In this document: positions 2,261 through 34,048 of the stretch, piece by piece
Layout: each line of letters starts with the position of its first letter
How positions within the stretch are numbered: position 1 is the first letter of the stretch
Virus record (IMG/VR): IMGVR_UViG_3300043446_003193
Location: 145,444-209,443 of that record
Reading direction: 5' to 3' (one strand)
Length of the DNA: 64,000 nt
Source of the DNA: a virus
Program-made: the position numbers and the translations under genes
The notes under the pieces: model-generated
The model's database searches: none
What the model was told of the DNA's origin: nothing
What the model saw: the letters and a program-made list of their open reading frames with translations, nothing else

Positions 2261-2261
2261 T

Positions 2262-2717
2262 TTAGTTTATTCTTTCTTCTATGTTAAGATTTGATTTAGA
2301 TACCATAAATGTTTGACAAACAACACTAAAATTATTACCAGGTTGTCCACCTACTAATTGTACTTCGGTTGTATTATCAATCTCATAGTATGCTGTATTG
2401 AAATAAATGATATCACCTATTTCTGGATATATTCCTTTTTCTTCTAACATCCATCTATCCAATTTGAATGTTACATTTTGATCAGTTTCGGCTCCAAATC
2501 CTTCGTATCTAGCAGTTTCTGGATCTTTGTTAATTAAAGCAAATACTTCTACACCAGGATGCCAGGTTTTGTTTATAGATTCTCCATAAATGTTTACCTT
2601 TGTTTCATTTAAATTAATTTTAAATAAAACAACTTTATTTTGAACTACATCGTCTACTACTTCTCTAGCAAGACTTTTAAATAATTCTATATCTCTACCT
2701 ACTAAAAATTTTGGCAT
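2262..2717 (-). CDS. gp14: Neck protein, gp14-like
   Basis: 151 residues, shorter than T4 gp14 (about 256). The match is in the middle and end: a VTFKLDRWMLEE strand-helix, then PEIGDIIYFNTAYYEID, corresponding to the T4 stretch that reads EGDLIYFPMDNSLFEI. T4 gp14 forms the neck with gp13 and closes the filled head before tail attachment. It lies one base downstream of the gp13-like gene and one base upstream of gp15-like, the same order as in T4. The N-terminal GRDIELFKSLAREVVDDVVQ helix is consistent with a neck ring protein. Confidence 0.7.
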   Translation of the reverse strand: MPKFLVGRDIELFKSLAREVVDDVVQNKVVLFKINLNETKVNIYGESINKTWHPGVEVFALINKDPETARYEGFGAETDQNVTFKLDRWMLEEKGIYPEIGDIIYFNTAYYEIDNTTEVQLVGGQPGNNFSVVCQTFMVSKSNLNIEERIN

Positions 2718-2718
2718 A

Positions 2719-3915
2719 TTATCCTACATATAATTTTAAAGGAACTTTTCTTAACATTTCTTGGTGGTGATTTGATTCATGCGCTTGTTTTTCAAACACA
2801 TTCTTTCTACTCATCTCTTCTAAATTTTCTCTTAATTGCGTTACTAATAAATCTTTTTCCACTTGTGCTTCTGCTCTTAACGCTGCACCATCCAATGCAA
2901 TTTCTCCATCTGGAATAGGAACAGAGGAATATTTTTCTCTAATAGCTCCTAATAATTCTTTAGATAATGCAAGAGTATATTTTCTAATCCATTGTTTACC
3001 CACATCATTAATATTTGAATACTGAATAAAATCATATGGAATATCAGAATAATCAGAAAGTGAATCGGCTTGAATTGTTTGAGAATCATGTTCAAATTCA
3101 TCTCTACTCATATATTCAAAATAAACTCTATTCATTCCTGTTCCAGTTGGTACTGGAAATATTTCTAATTTATTATCTACAATATTAAATGTATGTGCAG
3201 ATTTTCTTATGTGATCATTAAATTCAATTTGTTGCATTCTTAGAACATCTTCATATAAAGGCATCATTAAGAATTGTGCTGCAGGTGAGTAGTTACCAAA
3301 TCCTAATTCTGAAATTAAGTTTAGAGTACCTTGTGCACCAACTGAATATGGGTCAAAGAAACGAGTGATAGCAGGAATTGCTTCGTGATATACTCTGGTT
3401 ACATCTATTGTTGAACTTCCTGAAAACAATGTTTGAAAAGATGAAGAAGTTTCAACATCTATTGCCTGTTTCATAATATCATATATCTGAACTGATGCGG
3501 TTAAATCAACATATGCTTTCTTTATTGCGGTAGAACCACCCACACCCGCTTGAGTTCCGTATTGTTGTGCCATACGAATCGCAGTAGGAAGAAATGAACC
3601 ATCAACAAGTGTTTGAGAAAAATTTGAAACTTTTCCCTTTGGTTGGCCTCTTAAAATATCAAGATTATTACGAAGGTTAAATTGATTTACTTGAGAAGAA
3701 TATTCTGAAGTTGCTTCTTCAAAACAAGCCCAAATTTGTTCATTTTCCAATTCAATATTTACAATTGGATAACCTAATCTTTTTGCTACCCAAGTTGCAG
3801 TTTTTGGTGCATCTAATCTAAATTCGCTATCGGAATCGTATAATCCAAAAGGAGTTGATGAACCTGATATAAATGAGCCAGATATTGAACCAGACCAATA
3901 AGTGTTTGCAGACAT
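2719..3915 (-). CDS. gp13: Neck protein, gp13-like
   Basis: 398 residues. After a Ser/Gly-rich head comes a conserved-looking block, LDAPKTATWVAKRLGYPIV followed by a helix with WACFEEATSEYSSQVNQFN, which I associate with gp13-type neck proteins of marine T4-like phages. The C-terminus is a helical tail with many charged residues. Gp13 binds the portal side of the filled head and recruits gp14 and the tail. It is the first gene of its transcription unit: the capsid-gene terminator and an ATATTTATA motif lie directly upstream. The start is ATG with an A/T-only leader and no SD sequence. Confidence 0.7.
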   Translation of the reverse strand: MSANTYWSGSISGSFISGSSTPFGLYDSDSEFRLDAPKTATWVAKRLGYPIVNIELENEQIWACFEEATSEYSSQVNQFNLRNNLDILRGQPKGKVSNFSQTLVDGSFLPTAIRMAQQYGTQAGVGGSTAIKKAYVDLTASVQIYDIMKQAIDVETSSSFQTLFSGSSTIDVTRVYHEAIPAITRFFDPYSVGAQGTLNLISELGFGNYSPAAQFLMMPLYEDVLRMQQIEFNDHIRKSAHTFNIVDNKLEIFPVPTGTGMNRVYFEYMSRDEFEHDSQTIQADSLSDYSDIPYDFIQYSNINDVGKQWIRKYTLALSKELLGAIREKYSSVPIPDGEIALDGAALRAEAQVEKDLLVTQLRENLEEMSRKNVFEKQAHESNHHQEMLRKVPLKLYVG

Positions 3916-21308: not shown

Positions 21309-22697
21309 TTAAAGTTTTACATTTATCATCCAAGCATTTTCTGCAAATTGTTCTTTTGATACTAATTCGTATTGAACTTGATTTATACCATCTTCCTTAT
21401 AATTTATTTTTCCTTCCTGCATTTCCTTAACAAATCTTCTTTCGTTTTTTGCAGTTGGTTCACCCTTTATCCATTCTCCATTTACAAATCCCTCACTAGG
21501 ATGTGGTAATGCGTAAAATCTTCCATTTCTTCTATATGGTGTATTATTACTACTTACTTTAAATGTTTCATTTGTTATCTCTACATTATGTATCAATAAA
21601 TCAGAAATTACATTATTTTTATCTTTTAAAAAATCAGATATATTTTCAGGTAAAACTACATCATTGTAAATTTTAATATCTGCAATCTTTCCTTTTAAAT
21701 AATTTGCTATAATTGGATTACATTCACTGCATGGATTTTTACCAATTAAAATATCATTATTATATTTTTTTAATTTACCTTCAAATTCATGCGGTTTATA
21801 TTCCAATGTTTCTGTTCTTGTATTTTTAATTAAATTACTATTACAATAAAAATATATTTTATTTTCTTTAGAGTCTACCGAAACTGTTATCCATGTCCAT
21901 TCTCCAAATCCTCTTTTTATCCATGCATAAATTTGATTATCGTTTTGAGAATATAAAGAAGCGGATATTGCTCTAGAATTATTAAATCCTATAAAATAAG
22001 ATTCTTTTTTATCTATACTTAAAATTGGATATTCTACATATCGTTTATCTTTTATACCTATTAACCATTCTTTATATTTTTCAGGCTGATCTTCAATTTT
22101 ACACAAAATAGATAATGTATGTGATTGGGATAATAATTCCGATATACCAGTATCTTTTGGAATCGTTATATAAGAATTCTCTCCATCAAAATTAAAACAA
22201 GGAATATCATTGTATTCAAAAAATAAATTATCTTCTGTTAATCCTTCAAAACGACATCTCCAAAATAGGTCATCATCTTCCATACCCCAATCCCAATATT
22301 CATTAGAGTAACCATTTGTTGCTTCTACCTGTTCTTTATTCATTAATACAACACCACCGAAGTATTGTTCATAGTTTAATCTATATTTGTATTTAGATAC
22401 GGCGGTTGCAATATGTGTTGGAAACTTGTCTGGATATGAATAATCACAACTATCGTTTTCCGGTAACATATCTACATCGTGAAAAGCAACATAATCACAT
22501 CCATCTTCAAATGCATGTTTGGCTGCAATATTTTTCATCGCACCTCTATTGAATAATTTATCATCCGTTTGGTGTACAATATAAAATTGATGTGGAATTC
22601 CTTTTTTGTTTAAAAATTTTGTAAGATGAGGAACTAACATTTTAAGATGATATTCCCTATCTCTATAAGGAACACATATTCCGAGTTTTTTTATCAT
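21309..22697 (-). CDS. Beta-1,4-galactosyltransferase-like enzyme (GT7) with inserted LamG-like domain
   Basis: 462 residues. Residues 1-165 carry the animal-type B4GalT signature: ICVPYRDR, FNRGAMKNIAAKHA, the metal-binding DVDM (74-77), YFGGVVLMNKEQ (112-123) and NGYSNEYWDWGMEDDDLFWR (128-147). Residues about 166-345 are a LamG/concanavalin-like sandwich (YITIPKDTG, WTWITVSVDSKENKIYFY, KGKIADIKIYN). After it the GT7 fold appears to resume: KNERRF and DGINQVQYELV correspond to the C-terminal KNEPNPQRF and DGLNSLTYQV blocks of B4GalT. The sugar-binding-type domain is thus nested in the enzyme. It may decorate fibres or host glycans. It lies in the fibre operon. Confidence 0.8.
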   Translation of the reverse strand: MIKKLGICVPYRDREYHLKMLVPHLTKFLNKKGIPHQFYIVHQTDDKLFNRGAMKNIAAKHAFEDGCDYVAFHDVDMLPENDSCDYSYPDKFPTHIATAVSKYKYRLNYEQYFGGVVLMNKEQVEATNGYSNEYWDWGMEDDDLFWRCRFEGLTEDNLFFEYNDIPCFNFDGENSYITIPKDTGISELLSQSHTLSILCKIEDQPEKYKEWLIGIKDKRYVEYPILSIDKKESYFIGFNNSRAISASLYSQNDNQIYAWIKRGFGEWTWITVSVDSKENKIYFYCNSNLIKNTRTETLEYKPHEFEGKLKKYNNDILIGKNPCSECNPIIANYLKGKIADIKIYNDVVLPENISDFLKDKNNVISDLLIHNVEITNETFKVSSNNTPYRRNGRFYALPHPSEGFVNGEWIKGEPTAKNERRFVKEMQEGKINYKEDGINQVQYELVSKEQFAENAWMINVKL

Positions 22698-22699
22698 AA

Positions 22700-23164
22700 C
22701 TATTTTCCTTTAGGAGACACATAAATTGTATCTCTTATAAGTATTTGTTTTTCCGTATAAGGAGCATATACGGATGTATTATAACATTTAATATCTAAAA
22801 AATGACCAGCTTTTGTTGTTGGCATATTGACATATTCTATATTATTTATTTCTATTTCATTTAATTTATAATCTAATATTTTTATATTATTTCCTTCCTT
22901 TATTTGGGTATATAATTCATTTATTCTTATTTCCAATATTTCATCTGATTCATTTTTATATAAAACATATGAATCTGGATGAAAAATAATTCCATCAATT
23001 TTGTAATAGTTTGGTTCTTTCAAAACTTTAGTAAACTCTATTGTTGCGGTTTTATATTTTTCCTCAACAGGGCAATATCCTGTTAATGAGTTTACCTTTG
23101 GCTTTAAATCAATAATATTTTTAATTATTAATTCGTTATATTTTATATTCTCAAATAAATTCAT
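22700..23164 (-). CDS. Small protein of fibre locus, possibly Hint-like remnant (154 aa)
   Basis: No named family recognised. From residue 50 the layout recalls the second half of the Hint domain in the fibre gene next to it: an F-H-P step (DGIIFHPDSYVLYKN), an EIRINEL helix, then FLDIKCYNTSVYAPYT, parallel to EHPIFIKRDNEYKFL, RAEDV and SLDVETNDTYFANN there. The catalytic N-terminal Cys block and the final His-Asn are absent, so if related it cannot self-cleave. It sits two bases after the fibre gene and three bases before the GT7 gene. The link is speculative. Confidence 0.5.
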   Translation of the reverse strand: MNLFENIKYNELIIKNIIDLKPKVNSLTGYCPVEEKYKTATIEFTKVLKEPNYYKIDGIIFHPDSYVLYKNESDEILEIRINELYTQIKEGNNIKILDYKLNEIEINNIEYVNMPTTKAGHFLDIKCYNTSVYAPYTEKQILIRDTIYVSPKGK

Positions 23165-23166
23165 AA

Positions 23167-26100
23167 TTAAGGAGTTATTTTACCACCTGGCCCTAAAACG
23201 TTGTGTACTAATATATTATTTGCAAAGTAAGTATCATTTGTTTCAACATCTAATGAAATAAATTCATCTAATTCATCAACTCTTATTTTTTCTTCAATCA
23301 TTTCCCAGTTACCATCTAAATTATACATCATATCACCAACTATAACGTCTTCTGCTCTTAAAAATTTATATTCATTATCTCTTTTTATAAAAATAGGATG
23401 TTCAAAAGTTATTTTTAATTTATCATTTATTACATAATGATAATGCCAGACTCCACTTGTAACAGATTTTACGGCACTCATAGAATCTACATAATCAAAA
23501 GTATTTGTAGAAAATGTTTTCCATGCATCTTCTTCTTCAGAAAATCCATCAATAGAAATATTTTTTAATAAATCCCCTTCTATCAAATCTTCAACATTTT
23601 TTTCACTACCATCCCACATTAAAATTTTTGTACCTTTTGCTAAACACGTTCCGCCACCTGTACAATCACAACCTGCTCCTGTGTATTTATATATCAAACA
23701 AGAGGAATTTGCTGTTCCAGAACACCCACTTTCAGATACTGCATATATTTCATAATATATTGGGTTATCACATGCAATACTACTTATACTAAAAGCATAT
23801 GATGTACCAAATGAACGAGAACCTTGATTTAATATACTACCTTCCGGTCCATAATCAAATGTACATTTATACCAAACTACATAATAAGTCGCCGCATTTT
23901 GTGCGTTTGCAGTACCTGTTCTGGAAAATGCGTATGTTAAAGTACCACAAGTTGGAGTATCCAATGAAACAGTAGGTGCAGTTATATTTCCAGATGCAGC
24001 TACTGCATTATATGAAATTGCACTATTTGTTGCGGTTGTTGATAATAATGTATCTGATGAATTATATATTTTCGCTCTAAAATACATAGTAGTACCACTT
24101 GTTAGTGATATAAAAGCAGCATAATTAGTATTTGCTGTAATACTTGTAAATGTTTCTGCCGCCGTCCAAGTTGAATTATCCGTACTTTTTTCTATTACCA
24201 ATTTTGTAGCAGTATCAATTTGACCAACCGAATATGTAGCAGTTACTCCACCACATACTACTGATTTAGATACAAATGATAATGTATTTACTACACCTCT
24301 ATTTCTTAATACAATATAATAATCAGTTCCTTGAGAAGTATCTGTTGATGATTTTTGCCCATGTATACGATATGTAGTTGTTACTCCTAAAGTAGCACTA
24401 CTTACAACTCTTGCAGCTAAATAGTAATTACCATTTGTATATGGTAGACTGTTTCCAGAAGTATCACCTGTATTATATAATTGGAAGGTTTTTATATTTA
24501 GCGCACCTTCACCCTGTTGTGGAGATGTATTATCTGCTGTTTCCCAAAGTCCATTATATGTGTTTTGAAACATTCTAAACATACCATATGCGCCGGTTCC
24601 TGGTGCATTTCCGGAATCTACTGATACTGTCATTGTAGTATACGCACCTGGGAAATTACTCCAAGTGTATTTATTATCCATTGATAATACGGTATGTATG
24701 GATGCCAAAGCCTTTGTGTTCGGTTCTAAATTATCAAATGTAATTACAGAAGAATTTGTACTAAATGTACCGCCAGTTCTACCACTCCAGGTATCTAAAT
24801 TTATAATTCTAGTAGGAGTATATGTTGGTCCTTGATATGCGTATATACCATATAGTGTTGCAGGGGTATTTAATGTAAAAGTATAATCTAAATCTTCAAC
24901 TAATTGATTTGCAGTCCAACTAGAATATTTTATTGTACCCCAGTCATCGGTTGCTTTTACTCTCATTTTATATGTACTACCAAAACTCAAACCAGTAAAT
25001 GTAATACCCGATTGTGTTGTAAGAACAGTACCATTAGTATCTGCTATTTGGTATTCAACTGTTATATTATCAGCAGTTAAATCAATAGTTCCATCATTTG
25101 AATCATATGTTAATAATCCTGCATATATACTCATTTCAGTATATCCTTTTGTAAATGCTACACTAGGAGTTCCTGTTATTGATGCTAATCTTTTACCCTT
25201 TACTGTTATTGAAATATCTTTAGACCTTTCACTACCAGCATTAATATATAAAGTCCATGCATTAGTTGTACCGGAGTAAGTATATAAGTTACCCCACCAT
25301 GTATAAGTTACTGTTCCTCTTGATGAAGAACTTAAAGTAGTTTTTGATGTTGTTGCCAACTTTCTACAAAATGTAGTACTGGTATTTGTTCTTATCAAAT
25401 AAGTGCCATTATACGGGTTTGCACCATTAAAACTAAGTGGAGATGCTTGCATTCTATTATTATCTAACCAAACATACCAATATCCACCCTGTGAGTTTGT
25501 CTCAGTTGGACCGTTTGTTGTATATGATGCATCTAATGTAAAATTAACTCCTCTAATAGCATATCCGTCAACAAACCCACTTCCTCCTTTTACCACATCA
25601 ATTGTTCCAGGTTCTCTAGTAACAGTAACTGTTTTATTAGTTAAAGTATGATAATAATATAATCCTGAACTTATTGTATATGTTAAATAAACCGAACCAT
25701 ATCCATCACCAATTGTAGATGAATTACAAATTGCATCATATAAACTAAGTGCAGAAAAAGAAAAAGAAGCTACTGAATCTGGGTCTATTTGTGCATCAGT
25801 TAAACTTTGTCCTCCCGCACTTCCCCCATTTGGATAATATGCATCCAATCTTGCAGATATTTTAGTGAAATTGCCAGATGATCTGGTTACTGAAAAAACA
25901 ACAGACTGAACTTGAGAAAGTGTACCGGAATTTATGTTAGATGTTAAAGAATATCCGTATCCTTGATTTGGATACCCATATACTGTCACACTTGTTTCAT
26001 TAAAATCAGATTGTCTATATGTACCACCAGATGCTTTTACATGATAATACCAAGTTTGATCAGCAGATGGAGCAGTCCAACCATTATGTGCTGTTGTATA

Positions 26101-27963
26101 AGTACCACTATTCAAATCTGCATAAGTTCCTCCAGACCCTACTTTGTATTGAAAGTTATCATAAGTAAATGCAGTTGCTAATGATTTTGTTATACTAATA
26201 GAACCATTTGAATATTCTCTTCCAGTTACCCAACTTGCACCCAATCCAATTTGACTTTGATTTATTTTAAAACGAACACTAAAATTATCAGTTAATACAA
26301 ATCCATTTCCATCTGTAATTGTGGCCGTATGTGTTGATGTTCCATCATTTGCAGATGTCGCAGGATTATTAACAGTTATAGTAATTACTCCAGATGCCGT
26401 TTTTGCTCCTGATGCGGAAACCGTGCTATCGGTTGACGTAGCAGAAACACTTGTAACAGAAAATCCATTATCATTTGAACCATTAATAGTAACCGTTCCT
26501 GTAAAAGTTCTATTAGCTCCTGTTAAAACATAATCTTGATCATCAATTGTTAAAACTCCCTTTTGTGGTATTAATATATCTCCGGTTTCTGTATATCCGG
26601 ATACAAATGTAGAATTGCCATCGCTTCTTCTTGCTCTTACTCTTGCTTTTGCATATTGTGCAGTTGTAGTTTTACCTGCAATAGTTACCGAAGGTGTTAC
26701 ATTTGTACCGGCTGCAACCAAAGAAGTCCATGCTCCATAAGAACCACCACTATCTTTAACAGCATAATCTATATCATAATTTAAAGTAGTTCCACTTACA
26801 GCTGCAGTCAAAGCAGTGACCGTTACACCAAATGATTGTCCAAAAGCAGAATATGCTGCACTAATAGATGGTGAAACCATAGCAACAGTTACATTCGTAG
26901 TTGTATGATTTCTAACACTACTATTACTACTATTTGTAATATTTACTCTAAGAGATTGACTACCTAAAGTATTATAATAAATTGATAAATTTTGAGAAGT
27001 TGATGTAGAAATACTTGCTCCTGTTAATACCCAATTATAAGATATTGCAATAGAATCGGGATTATATAAAACTGTTGAAGTAACAGAATATGCAACAAAA
27101 GGTTCTACACTCGTAGAAGCACCAATTGATACCGCCATTGGTCTTCTAAATGTAGTTGCCGTAGTACTTGCCGTATCAAATGGGTTTGCCGAATCTTTGA
27201 CCACAATAGTATAATCATCATCGGCCGTATTACTTGAATTATTAAAAGTTGCAGTATTTACATCTGCAGAACCATAACCTGCTCCATTAAAATTATAATA
27301 ATACGGAGAAACACCACCTGCAACATTCACAGTAAAATCTACGGAACCGGTAGTATAATTATACGTTCCTGCGCCAGTAAATGATGGAGAAGTTGTAACT
27401 GATGTAATTGTTAAATCAACTGCATTTACAAAAACTGTTTTAGAATCATTTGCTTGTTTATTTGAAGAGTTTATTCTAAGTTCTAATCGTAATGTGTTTG
27501 TAGAATTTGGTACAATATATGTATTACTATTATCAACATAAAAGTCAGAAGCATTAGTTACATTTCCGGTAAGAGTTGCAGGAAATACATTTGTTCCAGT
27601 ATATACACCATTTACCCAGATTTTAATATATGCCGTTTCTCCGGACTGCATACCCGTCACAGTATATGTAAAATCTAATCTTTTACCTGATTGAGCATTT
27701 GTATTAGCAGGACTAGTTAAAGTATTTATTGTAATTGCAGGAACTTTACCTTCAAATTCTACAAACTCATATTGACTTCCAGTAGGCCTTGCTCCAGTAC
27801 TTGGGTTTAATACTCCGACAGTATTTGGTAAATCTCTGACAGTATTTGGGTCAACTGTACCGGTCAAAAATTGATTTGCAACATATGAACCACTTACTGT
27901 CGTAGTTGCAGTGTTAAGACCGGCAGAAGAACCTAAATCTCCAATTCGTATATTACTTGCCAT
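23167..27963 (-). CDS. Large fibre/adhesin ending in Hint (intein-like) autoprocessing domain
   Basis: 1598 residues, Ser/Thr/Gly/Asn-rich, of many Ig-like or fibronectin-like beta modules typical of phage adhesins. Residues 1440-1588 form a Hint domain: CLAKGTKILMWDG (Cys 1440, block A), ITFEHPIFI (TxxH 1519-1522, block B) and SLDVETNDTYFANNILVHN ending in His-Asn 1587-1588. The next residue is Val, not Cys, Ser or Thr, so protein splicing is not expected; N-terminal cleavage, thioester attack or C-terminal Asn cyclisation would be. Only 10 residues follow. The region just before (GAGCDCTGGGT) is Cys/Gly-rich. The gene overlaps the 2031-residue fibre gene by 11 bases. Confidence 0.85.
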   Translation of the reverse strand: MASNIRIGDLGSSAGLNTATTTVSGSYVANQFLTGTVDPNTVRDLPNTVGVLNPSTGARPTGSQYEFVEFEGKVPAITINTLTSPANTNAQSGKRLDFTYTVTGMQSGETAYIKIWVNGVYTGTNVFPATLTGNVTNASDFYVDNSNTYIVPNSTNTLRLELRINSSNKQANDSKTVFVNAVDLTITSVTTSPSFTGAGTYNYTTGSVDFTVNVAGGVSPYYYNFNGAGYGSADVNTATFNNSSNTADDDYTIVVKDSANPFDTASTTATTFRRPMAVSIGASTSVEPFVAYSVTSTVLYNPDSIAISYNWVLTGASISTSTSQNLSIYYNTLGSQSLRVNITNSSNSSVRNHTTTNVTVAMVSPSISAAYSAFGQSFGVTVTALTAAVSGTTLNYDIDYAVKDSGGSYGAWTSLVAAGTNVTPSVTIAGKTTTAQYAKARVRARRSDGNSTFVSGYTETGDILIPQKGVLTIDDQDYVLTGANRTFTGTVTINGSNDNGFSVTSVSATSTDSTVSASGAKTASGVITITVNNPATSANDGTSTHTATITDGNGFVLTDNFSVRFKINQSQIGLGASWVTGREYSNGSISITKSLATAFTYDNFQYKVGSGGTYADLNSGTYTTAHNGWTAPSADQTWYYHVKASGGTYRQSDFNETSVTVYGYPNQGYGYSLTSNINSGTLSQVQSVVFSVTRSSGNFTKISARLDAYYPNGGSAGGQSLTDAQIDPDSVASFSFSALSLYDAICNSSTIGDGYGSVYLTYTISSGLYYYHTLTNKTVTVTREPGTIDVVKGGSGFVDGYAIRGVNFTLDASYTTNGPTETNSQGGYWYVWLDNNRMQASPLSFNGANPYNGTYLIRTNTSTTFCRKLATTSKTTLSSSSRGTVTYTWWGNLYTYSGTTNAWTLYINAGSERSKDISITVKGKRLASITGTPSVAFTKGYTEMSIYAGLLTYDSNDGTIDLTADNITVEYQIADTNGTVLTTQSGITFTGLSFGSTYKMRVKATDDWGTIKYSSWTANQLVEDLDYTFTLNTPATLYGIYAYQGPTYTPTRIINLDTWSGRTGGTFSTNSSVITFDNLEPNTKALASIHTVLSMDNKYTWSNFPGAYTTMTVSVDSGNAPGTGAYGMFRMFQNTYNGLWETADNTSPQQGEGALNIKTFQLYNTGDTSGNSLPYTNGNYYLAARVVSSATLGVTTTYRIHGQKSSTDTSQGTDYYIVLRNRGVVNTLSFVSKSVVCGGVTATYSVGQIDTATKLVIEKSTDNSTWTAAETFTSITANTNYAAFISLTSGTTMYFRAKIYNSSDTLLSTTATNSAISYNAVAASGNITAPTVSLDTPTCGTLTYAFSRTGTANAQNAATYYVVWYKCTFDYGPEGSILNQGSRSFGTSYAFSISSIACDNPIYYEIYAVSESGCSGTANSSCLIYKYTGAGCDCTGGGTCLAKGTKILMWDGSEKNVEDLIEGDLLKNISIDGFSEEEDAWKTFSTNTFDYVDSMSAVKSVTSGVWHYHYVINDKLKITFEHPIFIKRDNEYKFLRAEDVIVGDMMYNLDGNWEMIEEKIRVDELDEFISLDVETNDTYFANNILVHNVLGPGGKITP

Positions 27964-30900
27964 TAGATAAAACCTGTTTTAAAGTATTTACTTCTTTTTT
28001 TAAATTTTGTATTTGTTTAACCATAATTGGAATTAGTTCATTATATTTTATGGTTAAATACTCTCCCATTATTCTTCCATCTGTTAAATTTGGATATATT
28101 TTTTCAACATCTTGTGCAATAAATCCATAATGTTTTTTATTTTCACTATCAGAATTCCAACTATATGCAACCGGATGTAATCTATCCATATCTTCAATTT
28201 CAGTTTCATCTATATCAACTATATTTTTTTTCAATCTTATATCAGAACTAAGTGATGTTGAAAAACCGGCAATATCACCTTTTACATGCAATTCTCCATA
28301 GTGAGCAAAATATCCTGCAGATTTTATATTTGCATTAGCAGCTGTTGGTGTAGCAATATCTTCAACTTTAAGAAAATTACCAGTACTATCCTGTGAACTA
28401 TTAAATAATGCCTGTAATCCTCTTTCTGAAATTTCTACTTGTTTTGTTAATGAAGTAGCTGTTAAAGATAATCCTTTTGCATAATAATTTGTTGAAGATG
28501 GTGAATATGAATCTACTCCAATACTTTCTGCCCAAATTGCATATCCAGCTGGTATAGTACCAAATCCAAATAAAGTAAATGAATCATAATAATCAATATG
28601 CCATCTTGTTTTTCTATAATTCGCAACCAAACCATTTGATTTTGTAGTGGATATTTGTAATGGGTTTGTTGTTTTACCAAGAGTTATAAATTGAAAAGAA
28701 GTATCTGCAAATTCTTCTTGAGTACTTGTAGTAGATGGAGAAACTGTTCTAGAAATTGAACCAATTGATGTTCCACCATAAGATAATGTACTTGTTACAG
28801 TTGCAGTACCAGTAACCGAATCAAAAGAAGTATAAAAATCAATATATTGTCCATCCATTTGTGAAAGAGTAGTATATGATGTTCCTTTTTTAGTATTAAA
28901 ATATGATATAAAAGCAGTAACAGCTGCTTCAGCACTACCACCTATCCATCCTCTAGTGATAGAAGAATAATAATTTAAATTCGTTGGGTCTTGACTTAAA
29001 TTATATTTTATATGATATGCAATATTTAGAGCTGCTTGATCAACAGTTGAAAAAGTACCAGTAGAAGCTACATATGTATACTCCATTGTTGGAGCATTGT
29101 TCCATTCTAAATCAATTCTATATTTAACCGATGCGTTAATTGAATATGTTGATGTAGCAGATAAACTGGTATACATATTAGTACTTGTTGCCGACAAAGT
29201 AGCTACCGTAGAACCATTAACATTATACAAATACAAATTTTGTGGTGTTGAAGTTCCTATACTAAAATAAGTTTGAGCGGTAGTTGCCGTTATTGCACTA
29301 CCTGCTCCTGGAACTGTTGTTAACAATTCACCTGGATGAATAAGTACACGGTTTCCTGCATAGGTACTTTCCCCTGTAATTTGAATATAATTATCAGCCC
29401 CAGTTCCTCCAGCATTTAAAGTAATTTTATCTTTAGAAATGCTATTTTGACCAATAACCCACCCACCAATAGTACCATCAGTAGCAGTTATTTTTCCAGA
29501 TATGTTCGCGTTGGAAGCTACTAAAGCACCTGCAGTATCTACTCTAAATGGAGCAGAGTTAAATGCCGTATTACCCGCATGAAATCCTGCAATTGACATT
29601 ACCGCTTGTGAATTACCGGATGAATTACCTGCTATTACTCTTGATTGACCACCATCTAATATCACACCATTTGTTGCAGTACCACCAATTAATTTTCCTG
29701 CTTGAATTTCAAATCCACCAATTGATCCAGTTTGAGCAGTTAATGTTGTTGCAGATATTGCACCACCAATATCAACTATATTTGTTGCAGATGCATCGTA
29801 TTTAAAATAATTACTACCACTAACAAAACTTACTTTTGGTACAAATGAACTTCCACTAATTCCTAACCAAATACCATTAGTACCATATGATTGAACTCCT
29901 TGACCTATTGAAACAAATGGTTTGGTAGTTCCACCTGCTAATGTTATATTTGCAGCAGAACCAGATGCATTAGTACCAATATTTAAAGTATTTTTAACAT
30001 ACGATTCATCAAATATTGCAATCTTAGCTGCAACAAAGAAATCTTGTGTTCCCAAATATTCCCAATAAGAATTGCTTGCTCCATCGGTAGGTGCATTTCC
30101 AGTTGTTTGCTGTAATGTTGCGTAATATTTTGTAACACCTCCTGAACTTTGATAAACGGCATCTCTTCTTGAAGAACCCGCAACAGTTGTGTAATAATAA
30201 GTTGTGCCTGCTGCATATTCTCCTCTTAACACAATACCAGGACCCGTCGCTCCGGTATTTCCATCAGTACCATCCGATGAAACATTTACATTATGTGTTT
30301 TATAAAAAGTTGTAGAAGTTCCTTCCGAATCTACATATGATCCGGTAATGCTTACAATTAATCCACTTGTAGAAGATGGTGTAGAAGGTGTTATTGTTGT
30401 ATATCCATCACCATCTACACCGGCATTTGTACCATTTGTTACAGAAGATATTCTAAATGAAGGTATAACATATGGAGAAGTGGCATCATACGCATATGCA
30501 CTACCACCTTCATTTACATATAATTTAAATGAAGAAGGAGTACCATATGAACCTGCTGTACTTTTTGTAATAGTTTGTCCATCTTTTTCAATTGATACAA
30601 CTACCGCCGGTGGTGCCGCTAATGCTTTAGAAACGGTAGCTACAACATTTTTAGTACCAGATGTACCTTCACTATCGGTATAGTTTACAGGTATTGTTAC
30701 TTGAGCAGTTGAACCAGTTATTGAAGATGCCGTTGATGTTATTGTTATAACATTTGACGAAACTGTTCCTGCCAATCCATTTGTATATGTTGGTGTACCT
30801 ATTGAAGTAAATCTACTTGTACCAGATTCCAAAGCAGTTATCGTTAATGCGGTTGGAGTAGCAGAACCACTTGTTTTTGAATTTGCATTTATTGATTGTG

Positions 30901-33900
30901 CAGATGGAGATACTGCTACTAATACATTTGGTGTACCTGCTTTAGCTTTTGAATATGTTACTAATTTTACAAATGTACTATCACTTCCTCTACCATCTCT
31001 GTAAGTTACTTTTAAATTTATACTACCACTATCAGCGGATAACGCGGTTATAGAATAGTTGTTATTTGTAAGTACTGCTGTTACATTTGAAGATGATGAA
31101 ATACTTGCACTAAATTTATTGTTTCCAATTGTAGATGCGTATGAAATATCTTCACTTCCAACTTTTACTGATATAGAACCACTACTTGCTAAAAACCCAC
31201 CAAAAACAGTTCCACCAGAATATGCAGGAAATGTTGTATTTTCGTTTGATACTGTCACTGCAATTTGTGATTCAGCTATTACCGGAGTAATTGTAATTGT
31301 ATCACTATAAACTGCATTATTTAAATCATAAGCAGTAAATGTATATGTTGTTGCGCCAGATGAATATGAATAATCACTACCATTTATACTATATGATTGT
31401 ACACCGGTGGTATTATTGTTAGAACCAACGGTCAAAGCTGGTTTACTACTACCACTAGTTACAGTAATTTCATTTGTAGTACTTCCTAAATTATTTCTTT
31501 TTACATCAATTGTTATAGTTTGTCCAGATGGTGATAAACTCAAATCGGTCATTTTATAAAAAAACTGATTAGCGTTAGAAACTGCATTTAAGTTTTTACT
31601 CTTATCACCTTTTAATACACCTTCCAATTGTACCGAAGATGAATATCCTCCTTTATTAAAATAATAAGTTCCTTTATGTGTAAGTTGGGTAGGAGTAGCA
31701 TATGACCAAGATGCTACATTTGTACCTAGCATTGCAACATCGTGTTGATCATCTCCACTAAAAACACGATAAACAGACTCGGTAGATTTTCCTATATATT
31801 CGGTAGATATTAAAGCTAATTTTGGTAAATAAGAACCAGAAGTTATGTAAATACTACCAGAAACAATGTTATTTGTTAGCTTTATATCAATAAAATCATT
31901 AAGTTGTGCAGGAACATTATTATCGTCTGGATCATACACAAATTGATTTTTATTAGCAATTGCAATGAAATTTTGACCATCAATACCATCTGCACCAACA
32001 GCTCCTTGATCAACTCTATAAATGTTTACCAAATCTCTTACATCTTCGCAAGATGCCGTATATTGAACTCTACTAATTTTTGATGAAGATATTGATCCAG
32101 TAAAATTAGAAACCAAAAGAGTTGCGGATGTTTCCGTTACATTTGTTAATAAACCAGGATAAAAAGGTTCAGATGCATAAACCGATGGATTAATGTAATC
32201 ACCATTTGCATCAAATGCTGAAGAGTAGAATGTTACAGAACCGGTTAATCCTATTTTTGAAATATCAAAATTTATTGAAGATACTCCAATTGTTTCTCCT
32301 GAGCCAGAAAAACTAAATAGTGTATTATCTGGAGTTACTGTTAATGATTTTTGAACAATTGTATCTGTTCCACCAGTAAATGTAATTTCTTTTTCTAAAG
32401 TAACAGGTACATAATTGTTATTAATATCGTAAAATTCAAAACGAAAATCGTAAGTATCATTATTTACTTTAGTCGGAACATTTACATTTAGAGTAACTTC
32501 ATTAGGAGAAAAGTTTGTTTCTTGAGAAGCTCGTAAACTTATGTTTGATAAATACCATTCTCCTTGATGAATATTAAAAAATATTTGTCCCTGCCCATCA
32601 GTATCTGGTTTAAAATTTATTTGTTGTTTATCAAATCTTCTAAAAGATTCACTAACATTAAATTCACCTAAAAGTTTTCCATATCCAAGATCAGAGTCCT
32701 CAACTACGAATGCCGGTCCAACACCAAACACATTTAATTTTCCATAACCAAAAGAAGATGATTGCAATAAAAGACTGAAATCTAATTGATATTCAGTATT
32801 ACTTAGAAAATCAATATCATTGTGATTATAAAAAACTCTCTGTGGATGTTGTGTTGTATTTAAAGTATTATCGTCTTGTAGTTTTACTGAAGATGCTAAT
32901 ACTGAATCATTTTGTGTAGCAGTATAATATGTATTTTCTTCATGTTTTTTATATTTCCAAAAATCATCTATTATTTTTTGAGATGAAAATTGTCCTATTC
33001 TAACATTTACACTTCCACTATATGCATCAGTTTGAAATAGTTCATTTGATTCTAACTGAATATCTTCTAATAAACTATAATTTCCAATATCTGATTTTCT
33101 TTTACCAAATATTTTCAAACGATTTACATCACCACTAAATGTTTCCAAATTAGCTATTTTTATTTTAGCATAAGAAGAACTAATTGCAGAGTTTGTTAAA
33201 GTTACACTTTCGTTATATGGTAATGTAAATGATGCGGAAGAAAAATCAGTTACATATTGTACGGCGTTTGTGGCATTTGAAGATGTTTCATAATAAGGAA
33301 TTGTTGCTAATGCTTTTTTAGAATTAACAACATCTTTTATAATTGTAGAATATGATTGATTTAATCCAGTTATCGTAATTGTTTCACCTTCCATAGATGA
33401 TGAAAAATTACTTCCACTAATTTTTAATTCATAAATTGTATCACCTTTGAAAGTTCTAAAATTTGAACCAGATGTAGGTTGTACCGAAACACCATCAACA
33501 CTTCCACTAATAGTTACTCTATTTACAGTTCTATTGTATATTGGTAAAATTGTTTCAGTTATATCTACCGTCGGTCTACGATAGAAACGAATCTTTGTTG
33601 TATTTGCAATAATAGGATTTACATTCACTACTTTTTGCCATCTAACATTATATTGATTTTCCCAGTTTGAAGGGATTGGTGTTAGTAATCCATTAGCATC
33701 TTCATATTCACTTAATTCTCCTAATATAGTAATTGTACATGGACCAAATGCAGTATCTGGATAAACATATACTGCCACTACTTTTGAAGTTCCTTCATAA
33801 TATTCAGGAATACCTTCTCCTGGTTCGTGATAAATTACATTTCCTAATGCATCTTTAATTTCTATCTTTATAAGAGTATCGGCAACTAATTCAGGAGAAC

Positions 33901-34048
33901 CCTGAATTAAAAAAGAGTTTTTACCACCAGAAAAAGTTCCAGGTAGTTCGGTGATTCTAAAGTATCTACTATTTGGATCAGTATCTTCTAAAAATATATT
34001 ATATCTCTCTAAATTTTCTGGAAATAGAGTCTTTTTAAGAATGGCCAT
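27953..34048 (-). CDS. Very large tail fibre with S74 intramolecular chaperone
   Basis: 2031 residues. The N-terminal 650 residues are beta-rich with several sandwich-like stretches. Then come repeated Ig-like modules (twice a block around NQFFYK/NQFVYD, several VTVS-type repeats), a short collagen-like TGATGPG near residue 1270, and a shaft. Residues 1934-2031 are a Peptidase S74/endosialidase chaperone: SSDIRLKKNI with the conserved Ser-Asp, HPVAYSWN, YGFIAQDVEKIYP and a terminal coiled coil. S74 domains trimerise the fibre and then cut themselves off before the Asp-x-Arg-Leu-Lys motif. It heads the fibre operon behind a late box and is likely the main receptor-binding fibre. Confidence 0.88.
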   Translation of the reverse strand: MAILKKTLFPENLERYNIFLEDTDPNSRYFRITELPGTFSGGKNSFLIQGSPELVADTLIKIEIKDALGNVIYHEPGEGIPEYYEGTSKVVAVYVYPDTAFGPCTITILGELSEYEDANGLLTPIPSNWENQYNVRWQKVVNVNPIIANTTKIRFYRRPTVDITETILPIYNRTVNRVTISGSVDGVSVQPTSGSNFRTFKGDTIYELKISGSNFSSSMEGETITITGLNQSYSTIIKDVVNSKKALATIPYYETSSNATNAVQYVTDFSSASFTLPYNESVTLTNSAISSSYAKIKIANLETFSGDVNRLKIFGKRKSDIGNYSLLEDIQLESNELFQTDAYSGSVNVRIGQFSSQKIIDDFWKYKKHEENTYYTATQNDSVLASSVKLQDDNTLNTTQHPQRVFYNHNDIDFLSNTEYQLDFSLLLQSSSFGYGKLNVFGVGPAFVVEDSDLGYGKLLGEFNVSESFRRFDKQQINFKPDTDGQGQIFFNIHQGEWYLSNISLRASQETNFSPNEVTLNVNVPTKVNNDTYDFRFEFYDINNNYVPVTLEKEITFTGGTDTIVQKSLTVTPDNTLFSFSGSGETIGVSSINFDISKIGLTGSVTFYSSAFDANGDYINPSVYASEPFYPGLLTNVTETSATLLVSNFTGSISSSKISRVQYTASCEDVRDLVNIYRVDQGAVGADGIDGQNFIAIANKNQFVYDPDDNNVPAQLNDFIDIKLTNNIVSGSIYITSGSYLPKLALISTEYIGKSTESVYRVFSGDDQHDVAMLGTNVASWSYATPTQLTHKGTYYFNKGGYSSSVQLEGVLKGDKSKNLNAVSNANQFFYKMTDLSLSPSGQTITIDVKRNNLGSTTNEITVTSGSSKPALTVGSNNNTTGVQSYSINGSDYSYSSGATTYTFTAYDLNNAVYSDTITITPVIAESQIAVTVSNENTTFPAYSGGTVFGGFLASSGSISVKVGSEDISYASTIGNNKFSASISSSSNVTAVLTNNNYSITALSADSGSINLKVTYRDGRGSDSTFVKLVTYSKAKAGTPNVLVAVSPSAQSINANSKTSGSATPTALTITALESGTSRFTSIGTPTYTNGLAGTVSSNVITITSTASSITGSTAQVTIPVNYTDSEGTSGTKNVVATVSKALAAPPAVVVSIEKDGQTITKSTAGSYGTPSSFKLYVNEGGSAYAYDATSPYVIPSFRISSVTNGTNAGVDGDGYTTITPSTPSSTSGLIVSITGSYVDSEGTSTTFYKTHNVNVSSDGTDGNTGATGPGIVLRGEYAAGTTYYYTTVAGSSRRDAVYQSSGGVTKYYATLQQTTGNAPTDGASNSYWEYLGTQDFFVAAKIAIFDESYVKNTLNIGTNASGSAANITLAGGTTKPFVSIGQGVQSYGTNGIWLGISGSSFVPKVSFVSGSNYFKYDASATNIVDIGGAISATTLTAQTGSIGGFEIQAGKLIGGTATNGVILDGGQSRVIAGNSSGNSQAVMSIAGFHAGNTAFNSAPFRVDTAGALVASNANISGKITATDGTIGGWVIGQNSISKDKITLNAGGTGADNYIQITGESTYAGNRVLIHPGELLTTVPGAGSAITATTAQTYFSIGTSTPQNLYLYNVNGSTVATLSATSTNMYTSLSATSTYSINASVKYRIDLEWNNAPTMEYTYVASTGTFSTVDQAALNIAYHIKYNLSQDPTNLNYYSSITRGWIGGSAEAAVTAFISYFNTKKGTSYTTLSQMDGQYIDFYTSFDSVTGTATVTSTLSYGGTSIGSISRTVSPSTTSTQEEFADTSFQFITLGKTTNPLQISTTKSNGLVANYRKTRWHIDYYDSFTLFGFGTIPAGYAIWAESIGVDSYSPSSTNYYAKGLSLTATSLTKQVEISERGLQALFNSSQDSTGNFLKVEDIATPTAANANIKSAGYFAHYGELHVKGDIAGFSTSLSSDIRLKKNIVDIDETEIEDMDRLHPVAYSWNSDSENKKHYGFIAQDVEKIYPNLTDGRIMGEYLTIKYNELIPIMVKQIQNLKKEVNTLKQVLSNGK

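Follow-up and report, generated by a model that had tools for sequence, protein, structure and literature searches.

The Fibre Gene and Its C-Terminal Domain

The window (the whole stretch of 64,000 nucleotides that was analyzed) belongs to a 209-kb virus record with T4-type baseplate wedge, portal, major head and terminase genes, and the nearest relatives of the terminase are found in Flavobacterium phage immuto and Microcystis phage Mel-JY01. All features of the window described below are encoded on the minus strand. A fibre protein of 1598 amino acids is encoded at 23167..27963, with the stop codon at 23167-23169. The fibre gene immediately upstream (27953-34048, 2031 amino acids) ends in the autocleaving chaperone domain Peptidase_S74 (28085..28246; Pfam PF13884, E 8e-16), and thus two successive fibre genes end in self-processing modules, of which that of the 1598-residue protein is a predicted one.

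Residues 801-1200 of this protein (24364..25563) diverge fast, with 27% identity to the related locus L001 and a pN/pS of 0.93, and are likely to face the receptor. A Cys-rich domain (residues about 1330-1431, 23671..23976) contains C1339, C1367, C1398, C1414 and C1422, which are all retained in L001, and the same is true for all eleven cysteines of the fibre. It is followed by the linker CDCTGGGT (residues 1432-1439, 23647..23670), which abuts the predicted cleavage site, and by a Hint domain (residues 1440-1588, 23200..23646).

The Hint domain begins with Cys1440 (Cys1; 23644..23646, first codon base 23646), the predicted nucleophile of an N-S acyl shift. It contains the block B motif TFEH (residues 1519-1522, 23398..23409), Asp1577 at the position of the block F His (23233..23235), and block G His1587-Asn1588 (23200..23205; part of VHN, residues 1586-1588), the predicted site of Asn cyclisation. 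The C-terminal tail VLGPGGKITP (+1 to +10, 23170..23199) starts with Val1589 and includes Lys1595 at +7 (23179..23181), a candidate amine acceptor in view of the lysine pattern of the relatives. Cys1440, TFEH, VHN, the Val after the Asn and the ten remaining residues had all been named in the original prediction, exactly as found here.

Identification as an A-Type BIL-Like Hint Domain

That the fibre ends in a Hint domain had also been predicted, and this was borne out by an iterative HMM, by a PDB profile search (2lwy, a bacterial intein-like (BIL) domain, E 3e-15) and by a fold search; together they place the identity far beyond chance. The AlphaFold model of the domain (37 sequences) had a pLDDT of 88.7. 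Its top fold match was BIL2 of Tetrahymena BUBL1 (Z 20.3, rmsd 1.6 Å over 137 residues), and further matches were DnaB inteins (Z 18-19), the C. thermocellum BIL domain 2lwy (18.3) and the hedgehog Hint (17.1). The best 50 matches listed were all Hint, intein or hedgehog entries with Z 14-20, and Foldseek agreed with the Hint fold.

The domain is easily missed, because the window copy does not reach the Pfam cut-offs (Intein_splicing 18.6 of 35.8 bits, PT-HINT 17.9 of 27.7); the relative in locus L260 clears that of PT-HINT. A PHROGs search with the full-length fibre gave no match, and the Hint domain alone matched phrog_38766. In the phage's own genome, a search for Hint_2 (PF13403) gave no match and an HMM search found no second Hint.

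BIL domains lack a +1 nucleophile, and those of type A end in His-Asn (PMC4031507, PMC7664689). The domain at the fibre end is almost certainly a Hint of the A-type BIL kind: it has the Hint fold, the N-terminal Cys, the block B Thr and His and the C-terminal HN, and the +1 residue, Val1589, is not a Cys, Ser or Thr. The parallel to bacterial intein-like proteins that had been drawn earlier was thus apt, the A-type layout being identical. The block F His, which many cellular relatives carry and which is not defining for A-type BIL domains, is absent. Class 1 inteins have a +1 Cys, Ser or Thr and a C-extein, in place of which Val1589 and a ten-residue tail were found, and B-type BIL domains have no block G motif, whereas HN is present here.

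A Family of Hint Domains on Phage Fibres

Tblastn searches reached jumbo phages of Erwinia, Dickeya and Yersinia as well as phage NCTB. Their Hint-bearing tail proteins are annotated, no study of them was found in the literature, and a literature search retrieved no paper on Hint domains of phage fibres. Scans of IMG/VR enlarged the sample; one of them confirmed 232 relatives, and 80 of these were retained. In total, 47 non-redundant relatives were gathered from the tail and fibre proteins of phages, and all except one fall into one phage cluster. A related-locus search with the widest alignment revealed no conserved stretch.

The core set comprised 40 domains with less than 75% identity, 38 of them fibre-borne. 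HN was present in all 40, and Cys1 in all 38 domains that have a residue at this position, which are the fibre-borne ones. Block B Thr and block B His were each found in 37 of 40; they are missing from two stand-alone Hints, in which Cys1 is absent as well, and have been lost from the domain of locus L006, which has kept Cys1 and HN. All of these residues occur together in 37 of the 38 fibre-borne domains. The residue at +1 varies: K is the commonest, and T, V, F, A, I, L, S, G and N also occur. The domains come in two builds, either C-terminal, with 2-18 residues past HN, or internal, as in the L030 group, where HN-Lys is followed by about 100 residues. The phage copies are mostly 25-45% identical, and the same type of Hint is found on collagen-like, fn3-like and other N-terminal parts.

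Gly-rich linkers ahead of Cys1 are frequent in the family. The residues CDCTGGGT had been regarded as unusual and as a possible attachment tail. Their Cys-x-Cys is indeed peculiar and is common to the window, L001 and L260 (CDCTGGGTC), but a Gly-rich linker is not unusual in the family, and the supposed attachment tail is mostly such an ordinary linker.

In a tree of 92 domains the phage copies, except that of L109, grouped together and separately from the cellular relatives (97/59; 96/83 for 45 of these copies), a clustering to be read with caution because the sampling began with phage queries. Asp occupies the block F position in 38 of 40 phage copies, whereas cellular relatives most often have H there; this Asp is a sequence mark of the phage clade. 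The L109 domain (2261-3721) lies within a protein that seems to be a tail protein of the tape-measure type, groups with the cellular Hints and has kept the block F His. Tandem arrangements were also seen. A 1851-residue open reading frame starting at base 2 of a Thermoplasmata archaeon contig (L126) contains about nine Hints with spacers of a few residues (...HN-TCC-FPAGT...), and a 925-residue one starting at base 1579 of a viral contig (L211) contains three to four, with HN-K at the C-terminal end.

A Lysine Follows the Terminal HN

Lys was found within positions +1 to +10 after HN in 38 of 38 fibre-borne core domains, and in 18 of 18 after clustering at 50% identity. These counts draw on related sequences, and lysines are common at C-termini; both effects were controlled for, but may still contribute. 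When the short tails were compared with matched C-termini of neighbouring proteins, 28 of 29 contained Lys, in comparison to 13.5 expected, and after clustering at 50% identity it was 16 of 17 versus 7.1. The same was seen in domains found later, which had Lys in seven of seven cases (FKL, FKY, FKM, AKAI, IKQL, LLEPK and TGTTTK; joint chance about 6e-5). The position of the Lys varies from +1 to +9, and it is +5 in L260, +6 in L001 and +7 in the window.

The cellular relatives showed an inverse relation to the +1 nucleophile. Lys was present at +1 to +5 in 25 of 39 domains without a +1 Cys, Ser or Thr, versus 3 of 27 domains with one (Fisher p 1.5e-5). When domains with Lys at +1 itself were left aside, Lys at +2 to +6 was seen in 12 of 24, again versus 3 of 27 (p 0.005). 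It looks as if Lys took the place of the missing +1 nucleophile, and the pattern suggests a candidate role as amine acceptor, which is its simplest reading. The lysine pattern after the cut is more telling than the residues before it.

The Hint Domain Is under Purifying Selection

No other long part of the fibre gene is as constrained as the Hint domain. Compared to L001 it has 85% identity and a pN/pS of 0.16, while residues 1201-1431 have 45% identity and a pN/pS of 0.68. The difference between 0.16 and the values of 0.68-0.93 in the fibre just upstream argues that the Hint is functional and not a dead intein. The best reading is an autoprocessing module that is maintained by selection.

A Small Neighbouring Gene and the Genome Context

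A gene for a protein of 154 amino acids (22700..23164) begins 2 bases past the stop codon of the fibre gene. The protein has no Cys1, no block B TxxH and no HN. With three homologues, hhalign aligned the protein with the second half of the Hint at 81%; the score of 37.7 exceeded those of all 150 shuffles, which reached 19.1 at most, and the E value was 1.2e-5 for this one comparison. With two homologues, its score was above those of 47 decoys from the window and of every non-Hint protein among 250 others. Its structural model is of low confidence (pLDDT 45). Among the 29 entries listed with a Z of 2 or more, 27 were inteins or Hints (Z up to 5.6); Foldseek gave no significant match for this model. 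Based on the alignment, the weak fold list and its position, the protein is probably a catalytically dead, degenerate stand-alone Hint.

Homologues of the small protein were found only in L001 and L260. No match was obtained in the phage collection, and a related-locus search with the protein led to no confirmed locus (L260 emerged via its Hint). In NCTB and L078 this place is taken by stand-alone Hints of 153 residues, which lack Cys1 and the block B His and contain HN; Cys1, T and H are jointly absent from stand-alone copies. The 154-residue pair gave no score against these dead copies (0.4%), and direct descent from them is thus unsupported. A dead Hint would therefore probably adjoin an active-type Hint in two lineages, that of the window being counted as a probable case. 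It is a guess that the small protein acts as a partner or regulator of the active Hint.

The gene order is common to the window, L001 and L260: the Hint fibre, the small protein, a galactosyltransferase-like protein and a cytidylyltransferase-like protein. The third of these in the window is a Glyco_transf_7 (galactosyltransferase-like) and laminin-G-like protein (21309..22697).

Several other genes were noticed near Hint genes. S74 proteins are also located there in L037, L045, L047 and L056. A conserved protein of 330-340 amino acids that starts with (M)YDVYYTTGGG adjoins Hint genes in many loci (e.g., L034 3506-4501, L036 3506-4501, L047 5549-6559 and L006 8440-9459); it had no Pfam match and is glycosyltransferase-like by eye. 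In another branch of the family, genes for 2OG-Fe(II) oxygenase, cupin or JmjC-like proteins lie directly past the Hint gene (L060 4610-5206, L061 1525-2115, L070 2106-2630 and L111 1632-2177), and in L077 a collagen-like fibre is close to it.

Predicted Maturation of the Fibre and Alternative Explanations

From the fold, the conserved residues, the purifying selection and the lysine pattern we infer the following chemical steps, their timing and the acceptor. In the folded domain Cys1440, aided by T1519 and H1522, would turn the Thr1439-Cys1440 bond into a thioester, and Asn1588 would cyclise with the help of His1587 and release the ten-residue tail. Because there is no +1 Cys, Ser or Thr, the thioester would be resolved either by water, which would trim the fibre at Thr1439, or by an amine. 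The latter could be the new N-terminus of the tail or Lys1595, or could belong to a neighbouring subunit or a different molecule. In the main, the fibre would be matured by loss of the Hint, and its end would perhaps be ligated. The predicted cleavage, or transfer to a nucleophile, is plausible. Self-cleavage can be expected with good confidence, while ligation to an amine is a doubtful, though possible, addition. Since almost every phage copy carries Asp in place of the block F His, the reaction may run slowly or in another way.

The original prediction had stated that splicing is not expected. This was too strong, because A-type BIL domains of the same layout are reported to splice: Asn cyclises and the freed amine attacks the thioester, although cleavage dominates (PMC4031507, PMC7664689). 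Another review differs and holds that A-type BIL domains are unable to ligate their flanks (PMC7765530). Cleavage is the safer prediction.

Taken together, it is rather probable that the fibre end is a phage A-type BIL-like module that is matured by self-cleavage, possibly with ligation to an amine, even though a ligated ten-residue tail would have no obvious use. Ligation might instead be the purpose of the domain, i.e., it could be an intramolecular ligase tuned like BIL2, which forms an isopeptide bond between its flank and the side chain of a Lys (PMC8616854). The C-terminal thioester would be passed to a Lys in its tail or in an adjacent subunit, or to an amine of host or virion, resulting in a covalent isopeptide cap or cross-link. 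The near-universal Lys just past HN, also out of sample, its inverse relation to the +1 nucleophile in cellular relatives, its presence at +5, +6 and +7 in L260, L001 and the window and the top fold match to BIL2 are in line with this. However, the Lys shifts its position, Lys-bearing C-termini are common, no ligated product is known and the tail is too short for an obvious cargo, so that a dedicated ligase is rather unlikely. A wider version, in which the phage Hint clade consists of single-turnover ligases on virion fibres that transfer the thioester to a Lys of the own tail, a neighbouring subunit or a cell-surface molecule, with the dead stand-alone Hint of the next gene as controlling or holding partner, is less likely still. 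Equally improbable is a non-catalytic, chaperone- or cap-like module for folding or trimerisation that is retained on the mature fibre. The domain does sit at the position of the S74 chaperone of the neighbouring fibre and is under strong purifying selection, and catalytically dead stand-alone copies persist; yet a purely structural role needs no such set of residues as is kept in 37 of 38 fibre-borne copies and jointly lost (Cys1, T and H) in the stand-alone ones. Structural demands could nevertheless explain part of the conservation of C, TxxH and HN.

Two further explanations are based on the history of the gene. The conserved Hint sequence might mainly serve as an anchor for recombination that swaps variable fibre tips among genes, as it lies behind fast-changing regions, occurs on different N-terminal parts, and BIL domains are located in hypervariable regions (PMC7765530). 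This is very unlikely, since the phage copies are too diverged for homologous exchange and their catalytic residues are held by selection. Last, the domain could be a decaying intein of a formerly longer fibre gene, in which it spliced before its C-extein was lost; this would fit the intein-like layout, the missing +1 nucleophile and the end of the gene right past the domain. No endonuclease remnant was found, one design is seen in many unrelated tail genes, and purifying selection together with a phage-specific clade led us to set this explanation aside as extremely improbable.

If the domains are active, the tail fibres of many environmental and jumbo phages are completed by self-cleavage or self-ligation that needs no ATP, which would add a maturation step to the S74 chaperone already known. 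According to the lysine rule, Lys stands in for the +1 nucleophile. This is a simple and testable idea of how BIL domains without this nucleophile complete their reaction, and it could be a source of new single-turnover ligases. Members of the family are found in culturable jumbo phages of Erwinia (e.g., Alexandra and Y3) and Yersinia (e.g., fHe-Yen9-02).

Comparison with Known Systems

A-type BIL domains, reportedly described in Amitai 2003 and Dassa 2004 and represented by the structure 2lwy, share with the phage domain the Hint fold, Cys1, block B TxxH, the terminal HN and the lack of a +1 nucleophile. They are the best solved relatives by profile and are near the top by fold. They belong to bacterial proteins, whereas the phage copies are parts of virion proteins, form a separate clade and carry the block F Asp and, typically, a short Lys-bearing tail. 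BIL2 of Tetrahymena BUBL1 (6y75, 6tmm) is the top match by fold and ligates to Lys, and the phage copies have a Lys past HN. In contrast to the phage domain, it is flanked by ubiquitin-like domains, and ligation is established for BIL2 and only suggested for the phage domain. BIL2 also binds zinc.

The tail proteins of the Erwinia, Dickeya and Yersinia jumbo phages and of NCTB (phrog_38766, "contains intein domain") carry C-terminal Hints of the same clade, but these have 26-35% identity to the window Hint and other N-terminal parts. Hedgehog Hog domains share the Hint fold (Z 17.1) and Cys1-type cleavage from a C-terminal position, which is predicted for the window domain. They undergo the first acyl shift only, with attachment of cholesterol, and the Hedgehog parallel that had been drawn is thus less apt. 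The closest fold is that of BIL2, which ligates to Lys (PMC8616854). The window Hint, unlike Hog, retains the terminal HN, and only ten residues, with no sterol-recognition region, follow it; transfer to a sterol was set aside. The intramolecular chaperone Peptidase S74, although unrelated to Hint in fold and chemistry, is likewise a C-terminal autocleaving module of phage fibres and is found on the neighbouring gene, an analogy that concerns the role alone.
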